From the NCBI GenBank assembly GCA_012959965.1, contig DUCF01000074.1:27924-69412 (forward strand): 41,489 bases of DNA, given 5' to 3'. Every line of letters starts with the position of its first letter. Positions within the stretch are counted from its first letter, which is position 1. The notes under the pieces are model-generated. The model was given only the letters and a program-made list of their open reading frames with translations. It was not told where the DNA came from and did not search any database. The stretch comes from Candidatus Thioglobus sp. GTDB taxonomy: Bacteria > Pseudomonadota > Gammaproteobacteria > PS1 > Pseudothioglobaceae. Made by a program: the position numbers and the translations under genes. Below are positions 3,115-41,489 of the stretch, one piece after another.

Positions 3115-4794
3115 TTAGAATAGACCTTGTACTAGGCCCTCTTCATCTAAATGAATCTTGTCTGCCGCAGGAGATCTCGGTAGACCAGGCATTGTCATAA
3201 TCGCACCACAAACAACAACAACAAATTCCGCACCCGCTGATAATCTTACTTCACGGATTGACATAGAGTGGCCAGTAGGCGCACCTAGTAATTGTGGATC
3301 TGTTGAGAATGAATATTGTGTTTTAGCAATACAAACTGGTAAATGACCAAAACCGTTGTCTTGGTACCAAGCAAGCTTGTCTCTAACAACTTTATCAGCC
3401 AATACTTCGTCTGCGTGATAAATTGTTTTAGCAACTGTTTCAACTTTCTCGAGCAATGGCATTGCATCGTCGTAAAGTGTCTTGAATTGAGAGGCGCCTG
3501 ATTCAGCCAATGCAACCACTTTTTCAGCCAAGTCAATCGCACCATCACCGCCGTGCTCCCAATGACTTGAAACACTCACGTCAACATGGAATTGCTTACA
3601 GTATTCTCTGATCACTTCAAATTCAGCTTCAGTGTCTGTCACAAAGTTGTTGATACCGACAACTAAAGGAACGCCGAACTGGCTTAAGTTGCGAATGTGT
3701 CTTCCTAGGTTTACACAACCCTTCAGTAGTGCCTCTGTGTTTTCTGTGTTTAGGTCGGCCTTAGCAACACCACCTTGGTGTTTAAGCGCACGAATAGTCG
3801 CAACCAAAACAACAGCGTCTGGCGCTATGCCAGCCTTACGGCACTTAATATCGAAGAATTTTTCAGCACCTAAGTCAGCGCCAAATCCAGCTTCTGTTAC
3901 TGTGTATTCAGACATCTTAAGTGATGTCTTGGTAGCAATTACTGAGTTACAACCGTGAGCGATATTGGCGAATGGACCGCCGTGAATGATCGCTGGGTTG
4001 CCTTCTAATGTTTGCACGATATTTGGTCTGAAAGCATCTTTAAGCAATACTGTCATTGCGTGGTGAGCATTAATTTGACTAGCTCTTACTGGCACCATGT
4101 CACGCGTGTAAGCAACAATAATATTGCCCAATTTTTCTTCTAGCTCTGCTAGGTTTTCCGCAAGACAGAAAATTGCCATAACTTCTGATGCAACCGTAAT
4201 ATCAAAACCGTCTTCACGTGGATAACCATTTGTTGAGCCACCTAAAGATGAAGTGATTGTACGAAGTGAACGATCGTTCATATCAACAACACGACGGAAT
4301 GCAACTTTTCTGCTATCGATGTTTAGTGAGTTACCCCAGTAAATGTGGTTATCAATCATCGCAGACAATAAGCTGTGTGCAGATGTGATTGCGTGGAAGT
4401 CACCTGTGAAATGAAGGTTAATGTCTTCCATTGGAATAACTTGAGCGTAACCACCACCGGCAGCACCACCTTTCATGCCAAAACAAGGACCTAAGCTCGG
4501 CTCACGCAAACATACTGTTGCTTGCTTGCCAATTTTGTTAAGGCCGTCTGTCAGACCAACCGAAGTGGTTGTCTTGCCTTCACCGGCTGGTGTTGGCGTT
4601 ACCGCAGTAACCAAAATTAGTTTTCCATCTTCGTTGCTTTGTGCAGCTTCAATAGCTTGCCAAGAAATCTTAGCTTTATCATGACCAAAAGGTACTAAAT
4701 CCTCTTTACTGATATTTAATTTTGCGCCGATGTCATTAATATGCTCGCCAGTGGCTAGTCTTGCAATCTCAATATCTGATTTATATTCGCTCAT
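3115..4794 (-). CDS. fhs: Formate-tetrahydrofolate ligase
   Basis: This 559-residue enzyme interconverts formate, ATP and THF with 10-formyl-THF. The ATP loop [12 protein letters not shown] is near residues 66-77 and most of the family core is recognisable (for example [10 protein letters not shown] and the C-terminal [10 protein letters not shown]). The open frame extends to 4839, but the ATG at 4792-4794 is preceded by AGGAG at good spacing and begins the normal N-terminus, so I take it as the start. In this cluster the reverse direction is the sensible one: 10-formyl-THF made from a methyl group is cleaved to formate with ATP formation, and the formate dehydrogenase encoded next finishes the oxidation. 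A 210-nt leader precedes the gene. Confidence 0.95.
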
Positions 4795-39406: not shown

Positions 39407-40528
39407 ATGAAACAAGTAGTAATCAGCGGCACAGGCTTATACACCCCAAGCCAATCCATTTCCAATGATGAGCTGGTAGAGGCATTTAACGCCTTTGTGA
39501 GTGATTACAACGTAATCAACAAAGCCCAAATAGAGGCCGGCACGTTAGAGCCTTTAGCAGAAAGTAGTAGTGCTTTCATCGAAAAAGCATCGGGAATTAA
39601 AAGCCGTTATGTTGCTAATAAAGCGGGTATTTTAGACCCAAAACGGATGGCGCCTTTTATCCCTGAACGTTCTAATGATGAGCCATCCATTCAGTGCGAG
39701 ATGGCCATTTCTGCTGCTAAAGACGCCTTGGCTCAAGCCGGCAAGACGGCAGCTGATGTTGACATGGTTGTTGTAGCTTGCTCAAACTTGCAGCGCGCTT
39801 ACCCTGCCATTGCCGTTGAAGTGCAAACCGCACTGGGAATAAGCGGCTTTGCCTATGATATGAACGTGGCCTGTAGTTCGGCCACCTTTGGCATTCAGTC
39901 AGCCGTAAATGCCATTCAGTCTGGTTCCGCTGGATGTGTGTTGATGGTCAATCCCGAGATTTGTACTGCCCACTTGAACTTCCGTGATCGCGATAGCCAC
40001 TTTATTTTTGGTGATGCTTGCACCGCAGTGATTTTGGAAGATGCTGCTCAGTCTTCCAGTGAAAGCCAATTTAAAGTGCTGAACACTAAGCTACAAACAG
40101 TCTTCTCAAACAATATTCGTAACAATGCAGGCTTTCTGAACCGCTGTGATGAATCGGGCCTAGGTAAAATGGATAAGCTGTTTGTTCAAAACGGTCGCAA
40201 GGTCTTTAAAGAAGTATGCCCTATGGTGGCGGCACATATTAACGCTCAGCTTGATGAACTGAAAATTCCTGCCGACAACCTCACTCGATTGTGGCTACAC
40301 CAAGCGAATTTAAGCATGAATGGACTTATTTCCAAGCGAGTACTGGGACGTGAGGCCAGCCTTGAAGAATCTCCGGTGATCTTGGACCGCTATGCAAACA
40401 CCAGCTCGGCTGGCTCAATCATTGCCTTTCATCTATATAAAGATGACTTTAAAGCGGGCCAATTAGGCGTAATATGCAGCTTTGGAGCGGGCTACTCCAT
40501 CGGTAGCGCAGTACTTGAAAAATGCTGA
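39407..40528 (+). CDS. 3-oxoacyl-ACP synthase III-like (FabH2/PA3286-like)
   Basis: This 373-residue thiolase-fold protein has the catalytic cysteine C156 in MNVACSSATFG, the histidine in WLHQAN and asparagine in RYANTSSAGS. The N-terminal insertion (residues 26-50) is that of the longer Pseudomonas FabH-like protein PA3286, which condenses medium-chain acyl-CoA from beta-oxidation with malonyl-ACP. The open frame starts at 39344, but the ATG at 39407 begins the conserved KQVVISGTGLYTP and follows GTAGGG by six bases. It has no fab genes beside it and seems monocistronic. Confidence 0.9.
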   Translation: MKQVVISGTGLYTPSQSISNDELVEAFNAFVSDYNVINKAQIEAGTLEPLAESSSAFIEKASGIKSRYVANKAGILDPKRMAPFIPERSNDEPSIQCEMAISAAKDALAQAGKTAADVDMVVVACSNLQRAYPAIAVEVQTALGISGFAYDMNVACSSATFGIQSAVNAIQSGSAGCVLMVNPEICTAHLNFRDRDSHFIFGDACTAVILEDAAQSSSESQFKVLNTKLQTVFSNNIRNNAGFLNRCDESGLGKMDKLFVQNGRKVFKEVCPMVAAHINAQLDELKIPADNLTRLWLHQANLSMNGLISKRVLGREASLEESPVILDRYANTSSAGSIIAFHLYKDDFKAGQLGVICSFGAGYSIGSAVLEKC

Positions 40529-40610
40529 ATTGTGAAAGAAAGGTCATGGAATTTATATGCTCTGAGAGCGCCTAGGAGAGGCATTACTTAGGTCGAGGAA
40601 TAACCCTACT

Positions 40611-40637
40611 AACAGCATATAACAGCATATAACAGCA
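40611..40637. repeat. Tandem 10-bp repeats
   Basis: AACAGCATAT occurs twice in direct succession and begins a third time. It lies in the 363-base gap after the ketoacyl synthase gene, about 140 bases upstream of the attC site. Apart from these repeats and the attC, no other gene or site is seen in that gap. Confidence 0.65.
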
Positions 40638-40779
40638 GAAAGAGGTTGTGCTAATCAACCAGTTCATCATTCTCGTAGTTTTTCACTTTTTCTAAGTGCT
40701 AAGGTATTAAAGTTATTAATAAAATCATTGGTACAATGCTAATGGGAGCGGGTCTGTTACGATAACTATGCAAAAATCT

Positions 40780-40879
40780 GGCTAACAAGAAAATTAACAG
40801 GGACACTAACGCTTGCTCGGTCCCGCTTCGTTTCACATTTTAGCCAACTATTACTTAGCCTGTTATTTGGGCGTTACAC
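40780..40879 (+). repeat. Integron attC site of Vibrio type
   Basis: The 100-base element starts GGCTAAC (R''-like) and ends GTTACAC (R'-like), the core sequence at each end of an attC. Inside, TAACAGG (40795-40801) pairs with CCTGTTA (40859-40865), and GGGAC (40800-40804) pairs with GTCCC (40820-40824) in part of the loop. The stretches GCTTCGTTTCACATTTTAGC and GGGCGTTA are close to those of Vibrio-type chromosomal integron sites. The VOC gene begins 12 bases past its 3' end, the usual cassette geometry. No integrase gene is in the window. Confidence 0.75.
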
Positions 40880-40891
40880 TTAGGAGGAGAC

Positions 40892-41326
40892 ATGCAATTA
40901 ACACCTTTTCATATAGCTGTTCAAGTTCGGGATATTGATGAGGCTAGAGACTTCTATGGCGTTAAGATGGGACTTTCTGAAGGTAGAAGCATGGAGGCTT
41001 GGATTGATTTTAATATGTTTGGTCACCAGTTTGTAACCCATCTCAATCCAAAACTTGGTAAAACTGGGAAGATAATTAATATTTCAAATCCTGTTGATGG
41101 GCATGGGGTTCCAGTTCCTCATTATGGAGTTGTTATGAACTTTGAAGATTGGGAAGCTTTCGCTCTAAAAGTTAGCGAGTTCATTGATGATTTTATCATT
41201 GAGCCGCATGTGAGGTTTAAAGGAGAGCCAGGTGAACAAGGCACTATGTTTTTTTCAGATCCTTCTGGTAATGCGCTAGAGTTTAAAGCCTTTAGAAATA
41301 TTGAGTTGGAGCTTTTCGCAAAGTAA
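40892..41326 (+). CDS. VOC-family (glyoxalase/dioxygenase-fold) cassette-like protein
   Basis: This 144-residue protein has two VOC beta-alpha-beta modules with H7 (LTPFHIAVQVRD), a second ligand position near FGHQFVTH and E in GNALEFKAF. Such proteins bind a divalent metal and act on diverse small molecules; substrate is unknown. AGGAG precedes the ATG. The AT-rich composition, the attC 12 bases upstream and a TAACAAGGC box just after the stop (41332-41342) mark it as an integron cassette gene. The second attC half that would complete the cassette is not recognisable. Confidence 0.85.
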   Translation: MQLTPFHIAVQVRDIDEARDFYGVKMGLSEGRSMEAWIDFNMFGHQFVTHLNPKLGKTGKIINISNPVDGHGVPVPHYGVVMNFEDWEAFALKVSEFIDDFIIEPHVRFKGEPGEQGTMFFSDPSGNALEFKAFRNIELELFAK

Positions 41327-41489
41327 ATATTGTGTAACAAGGCAAGCTAAATAAACAAACTATTCATAATTCATTAAACTGGCTTTTTCATCTCATGTGT
41401 GGGGGAGAGTATAACAATAGTAACAGAGGTGTTGGTGAGCCCCCCCTAGGGGTTAAAGAGTCTGGGTAAATATGAGAACTGCCAACATT

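Follow-up and report, generated by a model that had tools for sequence, protein, structure and literature searches.

The unit at positions 40685-41341 is very probably a fragment of a Colwellia-like (Alteromonadales) lysE-VOC cassette array that was transferred horizontally to the Thioglobus lineage and lies outside any integron. The window, that is, the whole stretch of DNA analysed (41,489 bases), is the final part of contig C74 (69,412 bases) of an assembly of 1.79 Mb (G000), which is 99.69% complete and is placed in a Thioglobus-like genus. The original prediction was of one integron cassette stranded outside an integron and recording lateral transfer. The position outside an integron is borne out. 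Lateral transfer is likewise supported: of 29 genomes of the genus, two have the unit, each between different flanks, and cassette arrays of Colwellia contain matches to its parts. The single cassette needs refinement: the unit is a piece of a two-cassette array made up of a lysE tail, its attC, and a VOC gene. The features of the region are the following (G017 is the second genome with the unit).

39407-40525: KAS III-like gene, neighbour of the unit
40526-40684, plus strand: left flank, 3' of the KAS III-like gene, with dispersed Thioglobus repeat modules inside
40685-40785, plus strand: frameshifted 3' remnant of a lysE-type translocator cassette, which opens the unit common to G000 and G017
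40780-40879, plus strand: attC (R'' 40780-40786, L'' about 40792-40801, L' 40859-40867, R' 40873-40879; covariance model R1)
40882-40889, plus strand: AGGAGGAG, read directly in the sequence, putative ribosome-binding sequence of the VOC gene
40892-41326, plus strand: intact VOC-family gene of 144 aa (PF00903), the cassette gene
41332-41338, plus strand: GTGTAAC, R''-like box of the VOC cassette's own attC, the rest of which is absent
41388-41489, plus strand: right flank, dispersed Thioglobus repeat up to the contig end (14 matches in G000 at E <= 1)

On sequence grounds, the element at 40780-40879 is a genuine integron attC. The predicted paired R and L boxes can be read directly. R'' is GGCTAAC and R' is GTTACAC, and the order R''-L''-spacer-L'-R' forms imperfect inverted repeats with GTT at R' and one extrahelical base. 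The covariance model R1 was trained on eight attCs from Vibrio, Pseudoalteromonas, and Shewanella plasmid records with the window site left out. These eight were picked from 15 listed sites because a central region is common to them, and R1 is biased toward the attC type of the window. In a search of the 41,489 bases, R1 aligned with the whole of the site at 72.5 bits (E 1.7e-18) and the second-best match reached only 9.6 bits, so the site does not score as background, the outcome that would have counted against it. In an alignment of 11 sites including the window, 8 of 18 predicted pairs are changed on both sides at least once.

The site had been called Vibrio-like. It is closest to Colwellia-type sites, with identities to Colwellia attCs of up to 89%, and not to those of Vibrio; the attC at the 3' end of blaVMB-1 aligns with 89% of the 107-base attC query at 75.8% identity. 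The folding energy of the region as single-stranded DNA is unremarkable (z 0.48). An Rfam search of the window, which includes one copy of a mosaic repeat described below, returned nothing at the gathering score and, below the cut-off, only chance-level snoRNA and lncRNA matches. A home-made box finder also detected the attC, but it gave other matches in the window with equal or higher scores and was replaced by the covariance model for that reason. The pattern TTTGGGCGTTA with one mismatch was unspecific (32 and 42 matches versus 25 and 18 for the reversed control).

The VOC-family gene starts at 40892, exactly 12 bases after the end of R', as predicted. Its protein matches PF00903 over residues 7-131 (27.7 bits, cut-off 20.6), which places it in the VOC/glyoxalase superfamily, and it matches PDB 3rri_A by sequence (E 3.4e-11). 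A promoter scan found no plus-strand promoter before the gene. The window protein is 97% identical to that of G017 and, among 67 loci, 88-92% identical to four records (three Colwellia and one Alteromonadaceae). The dN/dS values against these four genes are 0.087, 0.133, 0.142, and 0.108; the value between the two Thioglobus copies is 0.25, based on just 10 differences and weak evidence for selection within the genus. A VOC gene that is core in all relatives would have argued against transfer, and the window gene is not core. Many genomes of the genus do carry a VOC paralogue of about 45% identity, but it forms a clade separate from the window gene.

In the VOC tree the window gene groups with locus L060 (99/91). 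The Thioglobus pair and the Colwellia genes form a single unresolved fork, so the tree does not prove the donor or the direction. The tree also includes L009_x, a wrong-frame translation with an artefactual long branch on which no claim depends. Plasmid relatives of the VOC gene are all under 60% identity. Neither viral contigs nor phage records hold a VOC relative, and the viral contigs hold no exact match to an attC core pattern, so a phage vehicle is unsupported.

The VOC cassette is bounded by R' on its 5' side and, on its 3' side, by only the R''-like box of its own attC. The box expected just after the gene is present (TAACAAGGC, 41335-41343). The second half of the next attC is absent as described, with GTGTAAC, the reverse complement of R', standing there and the remainder missing. 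GTGTAAC lies 3' of the VOC gene in the window and in loci L060, L061, L062, and L064, and the sequences diverge beyond it; L063 lacks it at this place. The divergence after GTGTAAC in these five loci indicates that the VOC cassette's own attC was cut at or just after R''. It is conceivable, if very doubtful, that these cuts reflect integrase exchange on the R'' side of the attC, on the normally silent strand, which would produce attC-first mobile units. Such units would leave the 3' hairpin behind and could spread to hosts without integrons.

The downstream half of the VOC attC was searched for with R1, which gave a weak 25-bit match in L061 (4469-4537), 12.6 bits in L064, and no others; because R1 is biased to one attC type, attCs of other types may lie 3' of the VOC genes. 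In the Colwellia loci L061, L062, and L064, GTGTAAC follows the VOC gene and no clear full attC of the window type lies beyond. A second VOC copy in Colwellia DT_21 (G060 contig C10, L124 at 4001-4200) has an internal deletion and matches only positions 208-305 and 554-659 of the unit; it is a decaying duplicate.

The integrase was reported as absent from the region, and this extends to the whole assembly. No protein of G000 exceeds the TIGR02249 (integron integrase) cut-off. PF00589 detects two tyrosine recombinases, both far below that cut-off. One exceeds the XerD cut-off; the other has XerC as its best match at 318 bits, slightly below the model cut-off of 335. G000 thus has Xer-like recombinases and no intI next to an array, as a complete integron would have. 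Nor is it a CALIN in the sense of at least two attCs without an integrase: R1 detects a single attC of its type in G000, 150 bp before the end of the contig. None of the 29 genus genomes (11 of which are at least 90% complete) and none of 8 further genomes of the family has an intI that exceeds the family cut-off. Among 58 relatives, integron integrases over the cut-off occur in six, all outside the genus (29) and the rest of the family (8).

The unit shared by G000 and G017 measures 659 bp and is 96.7% identical between them, with different flanks; in G017 it sits on a contig of 5,726 bases. Among the 29 genus genomes, the left 207 bp of the unit and the attC detected by R1 are found in these two only. 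The KAS III-like gene is present in 2 of the 29 (G000 and G041, E <= 1e-60) and absent from G017, so the neighbourhood itself is accessory. The gene adjoining the unit in G017 is found in that genome only and is absent from G000 at E <= 1e-40. Sister strains had been proposed for a presence-or-absence comparison, and one of them is G041. Its KAS orthologue is 97% identical, and the left flank downstream of it is 89% identical over 102 bp. About 58 bp then lead into a repeat, and the contig ends. The G041 assembly as a whole contains no match to the 207-bp left part and no such attC. With the KAS gene and left flank and without the unit, the site in G041 is empty up to the contig end.

Repeats lie on both sides of the unit. 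Parts of the left flank in G000 are repeated on contigs C28 and C75 of the same genome. The right flank in G017 carries a repeat of the same kind as in G000, and 133 bp of the left flank match G017 contig C44. At its left edge the unit has ten bases (ACTTTTTCTA) that recur in both genomes and in a repeat copy on C75, a pattern that would fit joining by short homology. Short mosaic intergenic repeats (window 40554-40612 and 41388-41489) are dispersed in G000 (C75, C25, C4, C89, and C28) and occur also in the sisters G041, G017, and G019, with several copies near contig ends. Both carriers have the unit within 150 bp of a contig end, beside repeats, so its full right side is unseen. Since the window terminates where C74 terminates, no further array is seen on the right within the only 150 or so bases available, about 100 of which are dispersed Thioglobus repeat.

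From the sequence comparisons, the source of the unit looks Colwellia-like. The attC type of the window is present in 6 of 6 genomes of the Colwellia DT_21 genus, with 51, 6, 8, 36, 25, and 43 unit matches. Most of the matches listed include the attC (query about 98-192), with a highest identity of 89%. One match in Colwellia DT_21 spans query 32-192; an intact LysE gene (PF01810, 3.3e-31) ends there, in an array that also carries AHSA1 and glyoxalase cassette genes. By this match to a LysE gene end and its attC, the opening 100 bases of the unit can be recognised as a lysE tail. The tail and attC of Colwellia DT_21 are 75.6% identical to G017 over 164 aligned positions and 73.2% identical to the window, where the lysE tail is frameshifted. 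The remnant peptide alone has no Pfam match and no plasmid match.

In 22 VOC loci (L060-L080 and L124), R1 detects attCs at E < 0.001 in L060, L061 (weak), L062, and L064. Two attCs precede the VOC homologue of L064, and the genes in between include DUF1706. Five of the nine genomes behind the tested loci have an integron integrase over the cut-off (L061, L062, L065, L066, and L069); in those of L060, L063, L064, and L067 none exceeds it. The exact order lysE-attC-VOC was found at no locus outside Thioglobus.

The order of the parts bears on an alternative in which a helper integrase in trans inserted a cassette at a secondary (attG-like) site, with trimming afterwards. A circular cassette inserted at a secondary site is expected to place its gene first and its attC last. 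In the unit, by contrast, a lysE tail comes ahead of the attC, and VOC lacks its own. No R box marks the left edge (about 40685), and the left junction is off a GTT triplet in both carriers. Although homology on the right side stops at an R box and such insertions are described (Loot et al. 2024, as cited in the excerpts available of PMC12901181 and PMC11023631), this explanation is unlikely.

The closeness of the unit to contig ends in both carriers, and the repeats that flank it, could also point to an artefact of assembly or binning, in which Colwellia-like cassette DNA was fused to a Thioglobus contig at a repeat. ALOHA-labelled records stand behind both Colwellia and one Thioglobus carrier (G017, which presumably corresponds to JAKUUR010000044.1, Candidatus Thioglobus autotrophicus isolate ALOHA_A2.5_138). 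However, the alleles in the two assemblies differ (96.7%), and so do their flanks. A Thioglobus repeat borders the unit on the right in both carriers and also on the left (the C28/C75 modules in G000 and the C44 match in G017), and the best sampled Colwellia VOC protein reaches at most 92% identity to that of the window. An artefact is therefore very unlikely. Also very unlikely is a native Thioglobus integron relic that lost its integrase and decayed to one attC (a shrunken CALIN): the lysE-tail frameshifts and the missing half attC are visible decay, and loss of intI can give rise to CALINs (available excerpt of PMC8618304), but intI over the cut-off and further attCs of the window type are absent from the 29 genus genomes (11 at least 90% complete), intI over the cut-off is absent from the 8 further family genomes, and the two unit copies are at different places.

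The transferred lysE-VOC array fragment is thus preferred. The attC would be the end of the lysE cassette and VOC the next cassette, its own attC cut just past R''. The direction was presumably from a Colwellia-like array to Thioglobus. The fragment may have come in as a stretch of array that illegitimate recombination joined to the genome at, or close to, dispersed repeats, and not through integrase action on a single circular cassette. With no integrase in the genome, the attC would be expected to be inert, and the fragment would persist because the VOC gene is under purifying selection.

The unit documents cassette-borne transfer from an Alteromonadales-like integron pool to a Thioglobus (SUP05-type) genus in which 29 genomes have no intI over the cut-off, and it illustrates that cassettes can last longer than the system by which they were moved. 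Literature searches gave no title on integrons in Thioglobus or on SUP05 with cassettes; the two papers that mention both Thioglobus and integrons deal with other subjects, judged by their titles. A single orphan attC with one cassette gene is a transfer record, not a new system, and a small extension of known cassette spread. As evidence of gene transfer the unit is clear but ordinary. An orphan attC or cassette outside an integron is an already known kind.

The CALIN (cluster of attC sites lacking an integron integrase) has been defined, with proposed origins that include loss of intI (PMC8618304, in the excerpt available). CALINs are also carried by phages, for which a minimum of two attCs was applied (PMC9892861, likewise in excerpt). 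The Thioglobus unit resembles a CALIN in having an attC and a cassette gene without intI; it has one complete attC, whereas the published pipeline, in the same excerpt, asks for at least two. Cassettes inserted at secondary or attG sites of bacterial genomes (excerpts of PMC12901181 and PMC11023631, citing Loot et al. 2024) are similarly cassette DNA outside an integron. The unit differs from these, as far as the excerpts describe them, in its order of remnant, attC, and gene, in the cut attC of that gene, and in a left edge with no R box. The blaVMB-1 attC on the Vibrio alginolyticus plasmid pVb1796 is alike at 75.8% and adjoins an annotated integron integrase, so that it differs in its gene and in its complete integron. 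The sedentary cassette arrays of Colwellia (G060 and five others) have 6-51 such matched sites per genome, whereas Thioglobus has one, without an integrase; they share with the unit the same attC type and the same VOC and lysE cassette kinds.
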